From: Methylobacter sp.
Lineage (GTDB): Bacteria > Pseudomonadota > Gammaproteobacteria > Methylococcales > Methylomonadaceae
Direction: 5' to 3'
Assembly (NCBI GenBank): GCA_024636505.1
Contig: JAGXGY010000042.1
Span: 124,001 to 188,000 of the forward strand
DNA: 64,000 nt
Part shown: positions 47,524-56,353 of the stretch, piece after piece
Layout: the number at the start of each line of letters is the position of its first letter
How positions within the stretch are numbered: position 1 is the stretch's first letter
Notes under the pieces: model-generated
What the model saw: only the letters and a program-made list of their open reading frames with translations
The model's database searches: none
What the model was told of the DNA's origin: nothing
Translations under genes and position numbers: made by a program

Positions 47524-50500
47524 TTATCTTTTAATCCGGCAACAACGCATTAGCCGATAAGCTGCCGGTATGACCAGCATCGACAGCAGCGGTGCGGTGA
47601 TCATGCCGCCTAGCATCGGCGCCGCTATCCGGCTCATCACTTCGCTGCCGGTGCCGCTTCCCCATATAATCGGTAATAATCCGGCGATAATCACGGCGAC
47701 GGTCATCGCTTTAGGGCGCACTCGCAGCACTGCGCCTTCTTGGATAGCGGCCAGCAAGTCGGCTTCGCTATGCTGACCGTTGTTAATGCGTTCGCCCCAG
47801 GCCTGTTTTAAATACATCAGCATGATTACGCCGAATTCGGCGGAAATTCCCGCCAACGCGATAAAGCCGACACCGGTGGCAACCGATAAGTTAAAGTCCA
47901 GTAGATACAGAAACCACACTCCGCCAGTCAGCGCAAAAGGCAGGGTGACCATGATCAACAAGGCTTCATCGATACGTGAAAAAGTCAGGTACAACAGGAC
48001 AAAGATAATCAGCAGCGTTGCCGGAACCACTAACATCAGGCGGGCATTGGCGCGTTCCAAAAACTCGAACTGGCCGGAATAGCTTAGGGTGATGCCCGGC
48101 TCAAGTTTGACATCGCGGCTTACGGCGGTTCTAAGATCATCGACAACCGAAGCTAAATCACGGCCGCGGACATCGATATAGACCCAGCCGCTGGGACGGG
48201 CGTTTTCGCTTTTCAGCATCGGCGGGCCGTCGCTGATATGGATATGCGCCACGGTGCCCAAGGTGATTTGACTGCCTTGGGCGGTTACGATGGGCAGTTG
48301 TTGCAGTCGCTCCAGGGTGTCGCGCCATTCACGCGGATAACGCAGATTAATCGGATAACGCGCCAAGCCTTCAACGGTTTCGCCTATATTATCGCCGCCG
48401 ATCAGGCCCGATACTACCGATTGCAGCTCGGCAATGTTCAGGCCGAACTGGGCGGCCGCCTTGCGGTCGATGTCAATATCGATATAACGGCCGCCGGTCA
48501 GCCGTTCGGCCAGTGCCGATGACACGCCTTGCACCTGTTTGGCGATGCGTTCAACACGCTGGGCGACCCGGTCGATGTCGGCCAAGTTGCTGCCGGTAAT
48601 CTTTACGCCTATCGGGGTTTTAACGCCGGTCGCCAGCATGTCGATCCGGTTGCGTATCGGTGGAATCCAGACATTGGTCAGCCCCGGCACTTTGACCGCC
48701 GCATCCAGCGCCTCCAGCAGTTTGTCCGGGGTCATGCCGGGTCGCCATTCGCTACGCGGCTTGAATTGTATGGTGGTTTCGAACATTTCTAGTGGTGCAG
48801 GGTCGGTCGCGGTATCGGCGCGACCCATTTTTCCGTAAACACGAGCCACCTCCGGTACGGTTTTGATCATGCGGTCGGTTTGCTGTAACAACTCGCTGGC
48901 TTTTTGAACGGATAACCCTGGCAGGGCGCTGGGCATATACAGCAAATCGCCCTCATCCAGAGGCGGCATAAATTCGCCACCCAATTGACTGACCGGCCAC
49001 AACACCGTCAACGACAGCATTACGGCGATTAGAAGGGTAGATTTAGGCCGACGCAGCACCGCATCCAGCAGCGGCCTATAAACCTTAATCAGCCAACGAT
49101 TAAGCGGGTTGTCGGTTTCGCTGGGTAATTTGCCGCGTATCCAGTAACCCATCAAAATGGGGATTAAGGTCACCGAAAGACCGGCGGATGCAGCCATTAC
49201 ATAGGTTTTGGTAAAAGCCAGTGGGCTGAATAATCGCCCTTCCTGTGCTTCCAGGGTAAACACCGGTAAAAACGACAAGGTGATAATCAGCAACGAAAAA
49301 AACAACGCCGGGCCGACTTCGACTGCCGCATCGGTCATGACTTGCCAATGCGCCTCGCCCTTCAGCGTTTCATCGGGATGGGCATGTTGCCAATTCTCGA
49401 TTTTCTTGTGTGCGTTTTCTATCATCACTACCGCCGCGTCAACCATCGCGCCGACCGCAATCGCAATCCCTCCCAGCGACATGATGTTGGCATTGATGCC
49501 CTGATAGCGCATGACGGCGAAGGCCGTCAGCACGCCCAGCGGCAGGGCGACTATCGCCACCAGCGACGAGCGAAAATGGCCCAGAAATAACACGCAAACC
49601 AACGCCACTACGATAAACTCTTCAATCAGCTTGTTAGTCAGGTTATCTACTGCGCGGTCGATAAGCTGGCTGCGATCATAGGTGGTAACAATCTCCACGC
49701 CTTTAGGCAGGCTGGCTTTAAGGGTTTCCAGTTTGTTGCGCACGGCGACGATGGTTTCCCTAGCATTTTTGCCTGAGCGCAAAATAATCACCCCGCCTAC
49801 GGTTTCGCCTTCGCCATCCAGTTCGACGATGCCGCGACGCATTTGCGGGCCGACCTGGATATGTGCGACATCGCCTAACAGCACCGGCACGCCGTCGGCC
49901 AGCTTTATGACTATGGACTTAAAATCCTCCAGCGATTTCAAATAGCCGTCGGAGCGCACCATCAATTCCGCCTCGCCCAGGGTCAACACCGCGCCGCCGG
50001 TTTCGGCATTGGCTTGATTGATGGCCGTGCTGACTTGCCCGTGGCTGATAGCTAGGCTGGCCAGTTTTATCGGATCGAGTACCACCTGATATTGCTTGAC
50101 CATGCCGCCGATGGTGGCGACTTCCGCGACATTGGGCAGGGTCTTAAGTTCGTATTTTAAAAACCAATCCTGTAATGAACGCAGCTCCGATAAATCGTGT
50201 CGTCCACTTCGGTCGACTAGCGCGTATTGATAAATCCAGCCGACACCGGTGGCATCCGGCCCAAGGTTTGCCTGTGCTGTGGCAGGCAACCGGCTTTGCA
50301 CCTGATTGAGATATTCCAAAACCCGCGAACGCGCCCAATACAAGTCGGTGCCGTCTTCAAACAGCACATAAACAAAGCTGTCGCCGAAAAAGGAATAACC
50401 GCGCACCGTCATGGCTCCAGGCACCGACAGCATGGTGGTTGCCAGCGGATAGGTGACCTGGTTTTCGACCACTTGCGGCGCTTGCCCGGGATAACTGGTG

Positions 50501-50649
50501 CGGATAATGACTTGTACATCGGACAAGTCCGGCAACGCATCAACAGCGGTGGTTTTAACCGACCAAATTCCCCAGGCGGCGATAAACAATGTAGCCAGCA
50601 GCACCAAAAAGCGGTTGGCAACCGACCAGCGTATCAATCCGGCAATCAT
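47524..50649 (-). CDS. cusA: Heavy-metal RND efflux pump, CusA type
   Basis: 1041-residue inner-membrane RND transporter with the twelve-helix duplicated layout and large periplasmic loops. [26 protein letters not shown] at the N-terminus, and [22 protein letters not shown], are typical of CusA/SilA (copper and silver) rather than CzcA. The proton-relay helix has [17 protein letters not shown]. Last of three overlapping genes cusC-cusB-cusA; the start overlaps cusB by 4 bases. Confidence 0.92.
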
Positions 50650-51902
50650 TGCGCACCATCCGTTGGTAAGTTGGCTGAACGGGCTTCAATGCTGTTAAGA
50701 CTGGCTTCGGAATCGATTAGGAACTGGCCGCTAGCGACCACTTGCTGACCGTTTTCTAGCCCGGCGCTGATGACGGTTTGGTTGCCGATTTCATGGCCGA
50801 GTGTGACTTGTTGCGGCGTATAGCGTCCTTGATCGTCCACCACCATCACCAAGGTGCGTTTGCCGGTACGGATCAACGCTTCGCTCGGTACGGCCAGAGC
50901 GGTGTCTTGGCTGGCGCTGCTTAGGGTGACTTGTGCCGACAATCCCGGACGCAGTTGTTGTTGGGGATTTTTCAGCTCTACTCGCACCCGGACGCTACGG
51001 CTGGATTCGTTGAGCATCGGCAAGATCGTCGCTACCCGGCCTTCAATACTGCGTTCCGGGAATGCGCTGAGCCGCACTTTGGCGCTGTCGCCTAGGCTTA
51101 TCGCCTCCGCCTGAGCTTCGGGAACCGCAACCTCCAGCCAAACGCTGGATAAACCATTGATCTGAGCCAGCGTTTGGCCGCGACTCAATGTCATGCCGTT
51201 ACGCACCTCCAGGGTTTGAATGACGCCGGCTATCGGTGCGCTGATCGTATAATACGATTGAACGGCACCGGTTTGCTCCAGTCGCTGAACCAGCTTTTCG
51301 GGCATACCCTGCAATAGCAAACGTTGGTGTGCGGCACCGAGTAACTGCTTATCGTTAAAGCCGCGTACCGCCAACAGTTCCAGTTGTGCTGCCGCCCATT
51401 CCGGCACCAAGATTTTGACCAACGGTTGTCCAGCTTTGACCACATCGCCGACAGCCAACGGCCAGACGCGTTCGACAAAGCCGCCGCTACGAGTTTGTAC
51501 GATGGCAATATCGCGCTCGTTAAAAGCCATTACACCGGTGGCTTCAATTTGGCGACTCAGCGGGATGCGGGTAACCGTCGCCAAGCGCAGGCCGATATTT
51601 TGCGTTACTGTCGAATCGATGCTTAATCCGGGTGCGGTGTCTTCATTGTTATCCTTGGTATTATCGGCGTACTTGGCGATTAAGGGCATGTCCATGAACG
51701 GCGATGGGCCGGGCTGGTCGAAGTGCTGCTGCGGCATCATCGGGTCGTACCAATAAAGGACTTTCTGTTCATTGTCGGCCGCTACCGGTTCAACGGGTGC
51801 AGGCTGATTTTGCAACGCCAACCGCCAGCCGATGCCGCCGCCTAATGCCAGCAGCAGAGCGGCTATGGTTAAAAGGAGTGGGGGGTTATTCGATATTTTC
51901 AT
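50646..51902 (-). CDS. cusB: Cus-type membrane-fusion (adaptor) protein
   Basis: 418 residues. N-terminal membrane anchor ([15 protein letters not shown]), then a heavy-metal-binding segment ([20 protein letters not shown] with MDMPL) with several methionines, the usual copper site of CusB, and the lipoyl/hairpin/beta-barrel adaptor body ([24 protein letters not shown]). Overlaps both neighbours by four bases. Confidence 0.93.
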
Positions 51903-53179
51903 GGCTGTAATTCCGCATGTTCCAGGGTTTGTTCGCTATAGGTGTAGTGCAGGTGGGCGGCCAATTGTCGGCGCTCGCCTTCTAGGGCGATGGCTTTCAG
52001 CTCGGTGTCTATGCGCTGTTGCCGCGCCGCGATCAAGGTCGTTAAATCGCCCCGATTGCCGCGCCAATCGGCTAAGGTCAGCGCAACTTTTTGTTCGGCT
52101 AAGGGGATCAAGGTTTCACGCGTCCGCCTGACCGCATTGGACAAGCGCCGGTGTTCGGCCAATGCCGATTCCAGCATGGCGGTATGTTCCAGCAAGGCCG
52201 CGTTACGTTCGGCAACTAAGGCATTGCGTTCGAGCAGCTTGGCCTCCAGTTTGGGTTGTTGCCGGGAGCCGGAAAACAACGGTAAATCGACGCTGACCTG
52301 CACCGACATCATGTCGCTAAATTCCGGGCCGCGCCGCTGGTACCCTACTTCCAAGGCCCAGTCAGGGATTTTGGCCGCTTTAGCTTCAGCAACTTCGGCG
52401 TCCAGCACTTGGGCTTTTGGATCGAATAAATCCAGTTCCGGGTGGCGGTGTAGACCATGCGAAAGCGAATGCTGATTAATCGGCCAGTCGGGCACCGTGC
52501 CGGTCAACGGCTGAGTCCCCGCTTCGCCTATCCAGCGTTTTAACTGGGCGATAGCCTGGGCTTGGCGGCTGGCCAGTTCATCACGGCGTTCTTCAATCAA
52601 CGCAGCTTCCCGGCGCGGGGCAACCAATTCGCCGGACATGCCTGAACCACCAGCAAAGTGCGCTTGTACGGCACGGTCGAACAGACGATTTTCATTCGCT
52701 AAATCGGCAATACGGGCAAGCTGGCTTTCGACGGTTTGCCGGGCAATCCAGGCGGCGGCTGTTTGCTTTAATACTTGAAGCCTGAGCAAGCGAGTTTGCG
52801 CCTCGGCCAGCGCTACACGACCTGCAGCTGCCGCAACACGCGCATCCAATTTGGCTGAATTGGGAAACGCCTGCATTATGCCGATGTGCTGCATGGTCAT
52901 AAAATCACTGGACAAGCTAAAGCTATTGTTGCCTTGTACAGGTAGGTTGTTTACCCCTAGTGCGAGTTTAGGATCGGGCAAGGCCCCGGCCGGAATTGCC
53001 GCCTGCCGGGCGGCATCTATTCGGGTTTCATTGGCGCTTAGAATCGGTGCTTCACGCAAGGCCAATGCTTGTGCATCGGCAAAAGACAAAGCGTTAACGT
53101 TGCAAGGCAGTGTAAGCAACAGCAGCGCGATGGCTGCACGACTTGCCGGGGTAAAGTCGGGATGGAATAAAAAAAACAT
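51899..53179 (-). CDS. cusC: TolC-family outer-membrane efflux protein, CusC type
   Basis: 426 residues. Signal peptide (AIALLLLTLPCNVNAL) followed by the long helical repeats of TolC-type channels (SFADAQALALREAPIL, then two OEP repeats). With CusB and CusA it forms a full tripartite metal exporter. No lipobox Cys at the cleavage site, unlike E. coli CusC. A 154-base gap separates it from the Cys-rich gene. Confidence 0.9.
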   Translation of the reverse strand: MFFLFHPDFTPASRAAIALLLLTLPCNVNALSFADAQALALREAPILSANETRIDAARQAAIPAGALPDPKLALGVNNLPVQGNNSFSLSSDFMTMQHIGIMQAFPNSAKLDARVAAAAGRVALAEAQTRLLRLQVLKQTAAAWIARQTVESQLARIADLANENRLFDRAVQAHFAGGSGMSGELVAPRREAALIEERRDELASRQAQAIAQLKRWIGEAGTQPLTGTVPDWPINQHSLSHGLHRHPELDLFDPKAQVLDAEVAEAKAAKIPDWALEVGYQRRGPEFSDMMSVQVSVDLPLFSGSRQQPKLEAKLLERNALVAERNAALLEHTAMLESALAEHRRLSNAVRRTRETLIPLAEQKVALTLADWRGNRGDLTTLIAARQQRIDTELKAIALEGERRQLAAHLHYTYSEQTLEHAELQP

Positions 53180-53690: not shown

Positions 53691-54974
<1,284 letters not shown>

Positions 54975-55096: not shown

Positions 55097-55804
55097 TTAA
55101 ATCTGCCTGCCCACCAGCAAGCCCATCCAAATCACCAGAATACAGATCAGGCCATTGACGACAAACGTGCCCAGCATTAAGTTCAAATGGGTATCGAATG
55201 AATAGCCACTTTCTACTAGATATAACAATAAATATAAACCGGACAGGGTCAGAAAAACCCCGACCATAATCACCGTCAGTACGACCCGGTATTCCTCAGA
55301 CAGCGCGATTTTCTGCAACAAAATAGTCGCAATGATGCTGATCAGAAAAGCACCTATCGCGTTAATGCTCATCAACGCATAAGGAATAACGCCGCCCGAC
55401 CAGGAAATAACGCCATCCGAATAATAAAACAGGCCTCTGCCGCACAATAAGCCTATCCAGACCGCAAATACACAGGAAGTAATACTAGCGAATATATTCA
55501 ATGCTGCTTTGGTTAAGTGGCCCTGTTCGATTAAATAAAAAGTATCCAGTGAAAATGTCGAGAAGGTTGTCAGTGAACCTAAAAATCCGACCAAAATGGC
55601 CGCCCGGTATTCAAAGGTAATAGTGACGCGCTGCAGAATCAAGGTTTCAGCCAGCAAGCCGATCATAAACGAACCGATAATATTGACAACCAAGGTGCCA
55701 TAAGGAAACCCGCGTCCCAGCCATTGAGCAACACCCGATGACACCAGAAAGCGCAGCACCGCACCGAACGACCCGCCCAATGCAATCGCAACAATATGAT
55801 TCAT
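55097..55804 (-). CDS. crcB: Tandem two-domain fluoride channel (CrcB/FluC), second domain degenerate
   Basis: 235 residues, twice the usual 120-130. Residues 1-124 are a full FluC unit: LGGSFGAVLRFLVS (helix 1), TLVVNIIGSFMIGLL (helix 2 with pore Asn), EYRAAILVGFLGSLTTFSTFS (Phe-box, central Na+ site), and helix 4. Residues about 139-235 repeat the same pattern without helix 1: IPYALMSINAIGAF, EYRVVLTVIMVGVFLTLSG in place of the Phe-box segment, YLVESGY (compare YLIEQGH), and WMGLLVGR (compare WIGLLCGR). Seven helices in total put the two halves in opposite orientation, like a native FluC dimer. The second half has lost the TTFSTF residues. Confidence 0.88.
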   Translation of the reverse strand: MNHIVAIALGGSFGAVLRFLVSSGVAQWLGRGFPYGTLVVNIIGSFMIGLLAETLILQRVTITFEYRAAILVGFLGSLTTFSTFSLDTFYLIEQGHLTKAALNIFASITSCVFAVWIGLLCGRGLFYYSDGVISWSGGVIPYALMSINAIGAFLISIIATILLQKIALSEEYRVVLTVIMVGVFLTLSGLYLLLYLVESGYSFDTHLNLMLGTFVVNGLICILVIWMGLLVGRQI

Positions 55805-55807
55805 AAG

Positions 55808-56353
55808 CTAAAATTTGATAAAATGCTCACGGTAATAACGCAGTTCTTCGATAGATTCGACAATATCGGCCAAAGCCTGATGCGCAGACTGTTTTTTAAA
55901 GCCGTCTTTGACTTCAGGAGCCCATCTGGCCGCCAGCTCTTTAACCGTTGACACATCGATATTGCGATAATGAAAATACGCTTCCAGTGTAGGCATATAG
56001 CGATACAAAAATCGTCTGTCCTGGCCAATGCTGTTGCCGCAAATCGGCGAGGTATTTTCCGGCACCCACTGCTTTAAAAATGCCAGCGTTTGCCGTTCGG
56101 CTTCCGCCGTATCAATAGAGGAAGCCTTGACGCGCTCGATCAAGCCGGATTGCCCGTGGTGATGTTGATTCCAGTCATCCATGGCCGCCAACGCCGCATC
56201 GGGCTGATGCACAGCCAGCACCGGGCCTTGAGCCAGGATATTCAAATGGTTATCGGTAACAATCGTAGCAATCTCGATAATCGAATCACTGTCCGGATCA
56301 AGCCCGGTCATTTCAAGATCGATCCAGATAAGATGCAAGGAGTCCTGCGCCAT
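55808..56353 (-). CDS. orn: Oligoribonuclease
   Basis: 181-residue DEDDh 3'-5' exonuclease that degrades dinucleotides, including pGpG from c-di-GMP turnover. [15 protein letters not shown] (first Asp and Glu), [15 protein letters not shown], and the final HQALADI with active-site His and Asp are visible. Three bases separate it from crcB. Confidence 0.96.

Follow-up and report, generated by a model that had tools for sequence, protein, structure and literature searches.

A 64,000-nucleotide stretch of Methylobacter sp. DNA (the window; assembly GCA_024636505.1, contig JAGXGY010000042.1) carries a crcB gene that encodes two copies of the fluoride channel FluC in one chain, raising the question of how such a chain assembles. 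If the second copy is inverted relative to the first, must the fusion close upon itself to form a channel from a single polypeptide, or can it persist as a dual-topology dimer of two chains, each with a spare half?

A fused crcB gene in Methylobacter

We identified the whole protein as a member of the FluC/CrcB family. PF02537 matched it with an E value of 1.2e-29 and 103.1 bits (cut-off 32.9) in two stretches, and the NCBIfam models TIGR00494 and NF010791 scored 110.2 bits (cut-off 80.45) and 145.7 bits (cut-off 129), respectively. The four helices, the broken TM3 and the TTFSTF motif of the family are found together only in the first half, D1. The in-frame second half, D2, yielded weaker CrcB matches when searched alone as the C-terminal 117 aa (NF010791, E 3.1e-9; TIGR00494, E 7e-5; both below the curated cut-offs), bearing out the sequence-only reading of this locus, which had seen a FluC duplicated in one chain. 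As that reading supposed, a single crcB was found: the gene was the sole PF02537 match in its own assembly (86.7% complete), with no second, normal crcB found there. A fluoride riboswitch was matched neither in the genome, where 150 of 438 first-look candidates were scored, nor in the Rfam search of the window.

The fused gene lies between an upstream neighbor that we take to encode an oligoribonuclease (orn-like) and a downstream one that presumably encodes seryl-tRNA synthetase (serS-like; Table 1). Such genes flank crcB in many of the compared loci, and serS also occurs near the single-domain crcB of other Gammaproteobacteria among these loci. Three further minus-strand genes, at 47524-53179 of the window, are ones that we would take for an RND metal efflux system.

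Table 1. The fused crcB gene, its parts and its neighbors (positions in the window; residues of the fused protein)
Feature	Position	Strand	Basis or remark
Fused crcB gene	55097..55804	minus	235 aa, ATG start, 4+3 helices; open reading frame and profile matches
D1, complete FluC unit, residues 1-125	55430..55804	minus	Best PF02537 stretch 6-119; model against FluC crystal structures
D1 TTFSTF, residues 79-84, TM3 break and Phe-box F81, F84	55553..55570	minus	Conservation, model
Junction region, residues 126-129; D2 homology begins inside former TM1	55418..55429	minus	D1/D2 identity profile
D2, second FluC copy without TM1 body, residues 129-235, inverted relative to D1 by helix count	55100..55420	minus	Profile, model, alignment
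D2 counterpart of Phe-box segment, TLSGLY, residues 186-191	55232..55249	minus	Alignment; T186 and S188 kept, both Phe replaced
Helix TM2', residues 142-165	55310..55381	minus	AlphaFold2 model
Helix TM3', residues 170-198, predicted unbroken	55211..55297	minus	AlphaFold2 model
Helix TM4', residues 207-234	55103..55186	minus	AlphaFold2 model
Upstream neighbor, orn-like	55808..56353	minus	3 bases from its stop codon to the crcB start
Downstream neighbor, serS-like	53691..54965	minus	Open reading frame

The second copy lacks most of its first helix and, by helix count, is inverted

Hydropathy analysis delineated seven hydrophobic segments in the window protein, and when a simple hydropathy rule was applied to 120 distinct fused proteins, 116 of them had seven such segments, two had eight and two had six. 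The better of two AlphaFold2 models (mean pLDDT 73.9, pTM 0.61) likewise has seven helices, those of D1 at residues 2-29, 35-56, 64-78 together with 81-93, and 97-127, followed by the three of D2 (Table 1); TM3 is broken at residues 79-80 in D1, whereas its D2 counterpart is continuous. D1 of this model superimposed closely on FluC chains in a structure search (rows 1-17: Z 17.7-18.6, rmsd 1.3-1.7, 123-125 residues). The model was built from an alignment with five additional single-domain rows, D2 being based on 14 fused rows only, and we are only moderately sure of the predicted placement of D2. An earlier model from a 15-row alignment (pLDDT 63.1, pTM 0.49) was set aside as too weak to place D2; Foldseek with that model ranked FluC at the top, but with no match at E 0.001.

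The homology between D1 and D2 runs at a constant offset of 107 residues from TM2 upstream to about residue 22, in the end of TM1. Residues 22-33 and 129-140 share 30% identity over the 120 proteins, compared to 2-12% when 20 other offsets were tried; BLOSUM62 scores between the two halves average 1.24 at residues 21-33 and -0.33 at residues 8-20. Because the homology stops at the end of TM1, D2 lacks the body of helix 1, with the junction located inside the old TM1. An odd number of helices lies between equivalent helices, and therefore, as a matter of arithmetic, D2 is upside down relative to D1. The missing helix 1, the 4+3 layout and the inverted halves had all been proposed from the window sequence, and all three were corroborated. 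Such a gene could have originated by fusion of a tandem crcB pair, through deletion of both the stop codon of the first copy and helix 1 of the second; the product would be a chain of seven helices, by prediction, in which D2, from the helix count, is inverted relative to D1.

The fusion is widespread in Methylococcales

Among 61 Methylococcales genomes searched, including that of the window, 57 contained a match, which extended through both halves in 47. The remainder consisted of seven single-domain FluC, all from families f7 and f8, a gene inside which its contig begins (G015), a shortened form of the fused gene (G057) and a 226-aa protein with D2 too divergent to match (G046). An order-wide search produced matches in 276 of 301 genomes, every match listed spanning at least 221 of the 235 positions; among the relatives with matches are Methylobacter tundripaludum SV96 and further Methylobacter records. 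Samples of the class (274 genomes, 221 with a match) and the phylum (249 genomes, 223 with a match) showed, among the matches listed, no one-frame match through D2 outside Methylococcales, a search that may overlook fusions whose second half has degenerated beyond the reach of the profile. These observations confirm that the 4+3 fused FluC with an inverted second half is real, conserved and widespread in Methylococcales.

Several candidates from other orders were examined and rejected. In the longest rows (G064, G158, G675, G657, G793), the match crosses stop codons, and the sequences from G793 and G657 each proved to be a single FluC gene followed by a different frame; G145, with an open frame of 211, encodes a 126-aa single FluC.

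For comparative analysis, a first alignment of 62 rows, three of which were dropped, retained 49 fused and 10 short proteins. A larger one of 154 rows, reduced by five (L048, L029, L165, L024 and L166, with N runs, at a contig edge or broken), retained 120 fused proteins (at least 200 aa) and 29 shorter ones. A tree of D1 (128 of the 149 rows, 125 columns, quick method) left many forks undecided and implied four changes of the fused label, and the divergent fused rows L074 and L159 were placed near its root; therefore, it does not establish a single origin of the fusion.

In two genomes, a broken and an intact copy were found in the same assembly, on different contigs. In G011, one of the 47 genomes above, the copy between orn and serS (L058/L024, contig 73) is broken by in-frame stops, and an intact copy (L059, contig 93) belongs to an f4-rich tree group, a pattern that looks like replacement by horizontal transfer. 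G377 similarly carries a broken copy in the orn-serS place (L166, contig 29) and an intact fused copy (L142, contig 14) in the f4-rich group.

Pore positions are conserved in D1, whereas D2 has mostly lost the Phe box

The pore-associated positions of the two halves differ sharply, and TM3 of D1 shows scarcely any variation. In D1, R18, T37, N41, G73, G76, T79, T80, F81 and F84 are present in all 120 fused proteins and N103 in 119; N103 aligns with Tyr104 of Bpe, a site at which homodimeric FluC, in the passages available of PMC8315801, has Tyr in 55% of cases and Asn in about 35%. In D2, where the Phe positions were set by aligning G182, T186 and S188 to G76, T80 and S82, the first is F in 11 proteins, L in 59, A in 21, G in 11, V in 9 and S in 9, and the second is F in only 6 of the 120, so that neither Phe is present in 103, the window protein included; a Phe anywhere in residues 185-192 occurs in 19. 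Threonine occupies the T37 position of D2 in a single protein, E or D is never found at the E87 position nor N at the N103 position, and N is found at the N41 position in 74. The proposed loss of the Phe-box/Na+-site segment (LTLSGL at 185-190 compared to TTFSTF at 79-84) is thus accurate as to both Phe residues, but the hydroxyls of T186 and S188 remain, so that a loss of the whole Na+-site segment is too strong a statement.

D2 nevertheless retains a conserved set of its own: G182 (106/120), S188 (98, with T in 9), E198 (96), N217 (100), W226 (96) and G228 (114). Mean pairwise identity is 0.64 for D1 and 0.33 for D2, and within the genus of the window dN/dS is 0.079 for D1 and 0.120 for D2 (18 proteins, 153 pairs, two saturated D1 pairs being excluded from the dS mean). 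Purifying selection on D2 is shown for this one genus, and, to judge from substitution patterns, D2 is under selection for something other than the known pore.

According to the passages available of PMC4969038, every FluC pore combines two Phe residues, the first contributed by one domain and the second by its partner. A Phe-less half would therefore spoil both pores. Pairing of D1 with D2 would leave each pore short of a Phe in 103 of the 120 proteins, the D1-side pore being complete in 11 and the other in 6. The suggestion that a single-chain pseudo-dimer would be left with one pore is not supported in these terms, given that such a pair, with D2 devoid of Phe, would have one Phe per pore and no complete pore. 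Nor is the proposed similarity to eukaryotic FEX in this respect: in FEX, as described in passages of PMC5417652, the first domain retains the first Phe and the second domain the second, so placed that they share one pore, and each domain has lost one Phe, both from the other pore, whereas here D2 loses both and D1 keeps both. F81 of D1, which would face the dead pore in a D1:D2 pair, shows no drift.

These Phe rules derive from Ec2, and an arrangement with both Phe lost from one domain lies outside the Ec2 tests, constructs without both Phe in one domain having been intractable (PMC4969038, in the passages available). For the first Phe position, a table passage of PMC5636608 gives L, A, S and T as inactive in Ec2; G and V lie outside that passage.

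Loop charge is balanced in single copies and opposite in paired copies

Passages of PMC3755343 report balanced loop charge for FluC singletons and opposite bias for twins, and the available part of PMC3962082 gives a charge bias of 0 for CrcB. Over the entire seven-helix chain, the K+R bias of the 112 unpaired fused proteins ranged from -3 to +1, with no two differing by more than 4, and the bias of D1 alone was 0 in 97 of 120. As a control, 12 other window proteins with at least three predicted helices showed an absolute bias of at least 6 in seven cases and at most 4 in five, so that a low bias is by itself of little diagnostic value.

Four genomes of one genus (G058, G334, G342, G346) each contain two neighboring fused genes on opposite strands, spaced by about 0.3 kb in three and by 1.6 kb in G342. 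Their biases were +5/-5 in G058, +3/-8 in G334, and +2/-4 in both G342 and G346, and six proteins from single-copy genomes of the same genus had a bias of 0 or -2. The two copies fall into separate groups of four rows each in the D1 tree, which means that their opposite bias has persisted during evolution; the four gene pairs are one related set and may represent one event. Balanced singletons and oppositely biased pairs, the charge pattern of dual topology, are hence both found, the pairs in one genus. A simple reading would be that antiparallel pairing takes place between entire chains. The paired fused genes are represented by rows L050, L128/L138, L120/L136 and L117/L137.

In some relatives D2 is cut or lost

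Three genes encode shortened products: L157 (G361, a single-contig assembly), a 133-aa protein with D1 only; L158 (G452), 118 aa by the chosen start and also D1 only; and L070 (G057, L070:1044-1523), 160 aa, with the linker and the last D2 helix only and serS close behind. All three nest among fused rows of the D1 tree (38-row group, SH-aLRT 92). A tblastn search for D2 remnants behind these genes gave no clear match (best E 0.010 for L070, 0.060 for L157 and 0.005 for L158). Apparently, D1 can do without D2 in these lineages, where other changes are possible, and the D2-less relatives may represent a return to homodimers. Behind the D1-only gene of L157 lies a short frame that, we presume, resembles DUF190.

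How the fused chain might assemble

The arrangement that we consider probable, if only by a little, is a dual-topology dimer between chains formed through D1:D1, with D2 as a non-conducting inverted appendage. The chain would insert both ways, and D1 of one chain would pair antiparallel with D1 of another, as conservation and loop charge suggest, producing a fluoride channel of the usual double-barrelled FluC kind in which the Phe boxes are complete. D2, devoid of the known pore residues, would not conduct; the purifying selection seen in one genus could keep it for a role in structure or assembly, and a few relatives have shortened or lost it. The invariant Phe residues of D1, the opposite bias in gene pairs and the loss of D2 in relatives seem to fit this D1:D1 dimer better. 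What speaks for the model of the sequence-only reading instead is that D2 is not simply decaying, considering its dN/dS of 0.120 and its kept residues, including the hydroxyl at the TM3 crossing, for which a closed D1:D2 pair would have a use. That model, a closed antiparallel D1:D2 pseudo-dimer in one chain, with a single working pore along the D1 polar track, would make the protein a bacterial parallel to FEX reached by helix deletion; we regard it as unlikely, if by no means far-fetched. The 4+3 layout gives the correct inversion, selection maintains D2 with S or T at the S82 position (107/120) and G at the G76 position (106/120), and in 11 of 120 proteins the Phe retained by D2 is precisely the one that would point into the D1 pore. 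Balanced charge is also compatible with a closed pseudo-dimer functional in either orientation, and FluC twins engineered into an antiparallel fusion were active as a single chain (PMC3755343, in the passages available). However, the D1-side pore would be without its first Phe in 109 of 120 proteins, in 89 of which the replacement is L, A or S, inactive in Ec2 (PMC5636608, table passage); F81 of D1 is invariant although it would face a dead pore, whereas FEX lost its counterpart (passages of PMC5417652); and the opposite bias of paired copies and the D2-less relatives would be left unexplained. Moreover, the better model (pTM 0.61) matched the Candida albicans FEX chain 9op1_C via D1 only (model residues 1-129, 124 aligned, Z 9.4), where for a closed FEX-like D1:D2 unit one would expect an alignment spanning D1 and D2; at this pTM, the result is a hint only. 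That one pore of a single-chain FluC arisen by helix deletion conducts with one coordinating Phe, the other being L, A, G, V or S in most proteins, contrary to the Ec2 rule, we find distinctly unlikely.

Another assembly, with a D1:D1 core and D2:D2 contacts in a four-domain complex, or with D2 as a regulator or anchor that has its own selected role, would account for a D2 that is conserved without pore residues and is compatible with the sequence, but D2 is absent in some relatives, and we consider such an assembly quite improbable. It is most improbable that crcB is an inactive relic. Pore residues have indeed been lost from D2, but dN/dS is low in both halves, the gene is the only crcB found in its genome, and most of the relatives searched have a frame that stays open across D1 and D2. 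Taken as a whole, the interpretation initially offered for this locus is partly supported.

Comparison with known systems

The Methylococcales protein resembles bacterial FluC/CrcB (PF02537; Ec2, Bpe) in the sequence and motif of D1, in its predicted fold (Z up to 18.6) and in its balanced loop charge. It differs in carrying an inverted three-helix second copy fused C-terminally, prokaryotic FluC being described as 120-130 residues long in passages of PMC3755343. In the literature searched, which covered few subscription journals, the titles, abstract beginnings and passages of the matches listed contained no description of a fused bacterial CrcB. The four genomes with two neighboring copies of opposite charge bias are reminiscent of FluC twins such as La1/La2, but here both members of a pair are 4+3 fusions in their own right, and the paired genes lie on opposite strands.

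With eukaryotic FEX, the protein shares two mutually inverted FluC units per chain, one of which has degraded pore residues. Unlike FEX, which has a 4+1+4 layout with a linker helix, it has seven helices by prediction (116/120 fused proteins and the model). Rather than one pore with intact Phe residues and one Phe lost per domain, we found both retained in D1 (120/120) and neither in D2 (103/120).

Passages of PMC3755343 explain fused antiparallel FluC by the capture of a linker helix, termed "evolutionary gymnastics". The fusion characterized here points to a simpler route to an inverted fusion, the loss of one helix at the junction, which is widespread in a bacterial order. Living relatives offer the single form, the fused form with or without a paired copy, and forms in which D2 is cut or absent. 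They therefore provide a setting in which to test if closure is obligatory for an inverted fusion or if such a protein may persist as a dual-topology dimer whose chains each carry a spare half. The two-domain fusions of DUF606, another family likened here by description only (PMC3962082, available part), are also inverted fusions in a dual-topology family. The fused half in Methylococcales looks like a naturally occurring intermediate on the way to the mirror-image repeats of many transporters.
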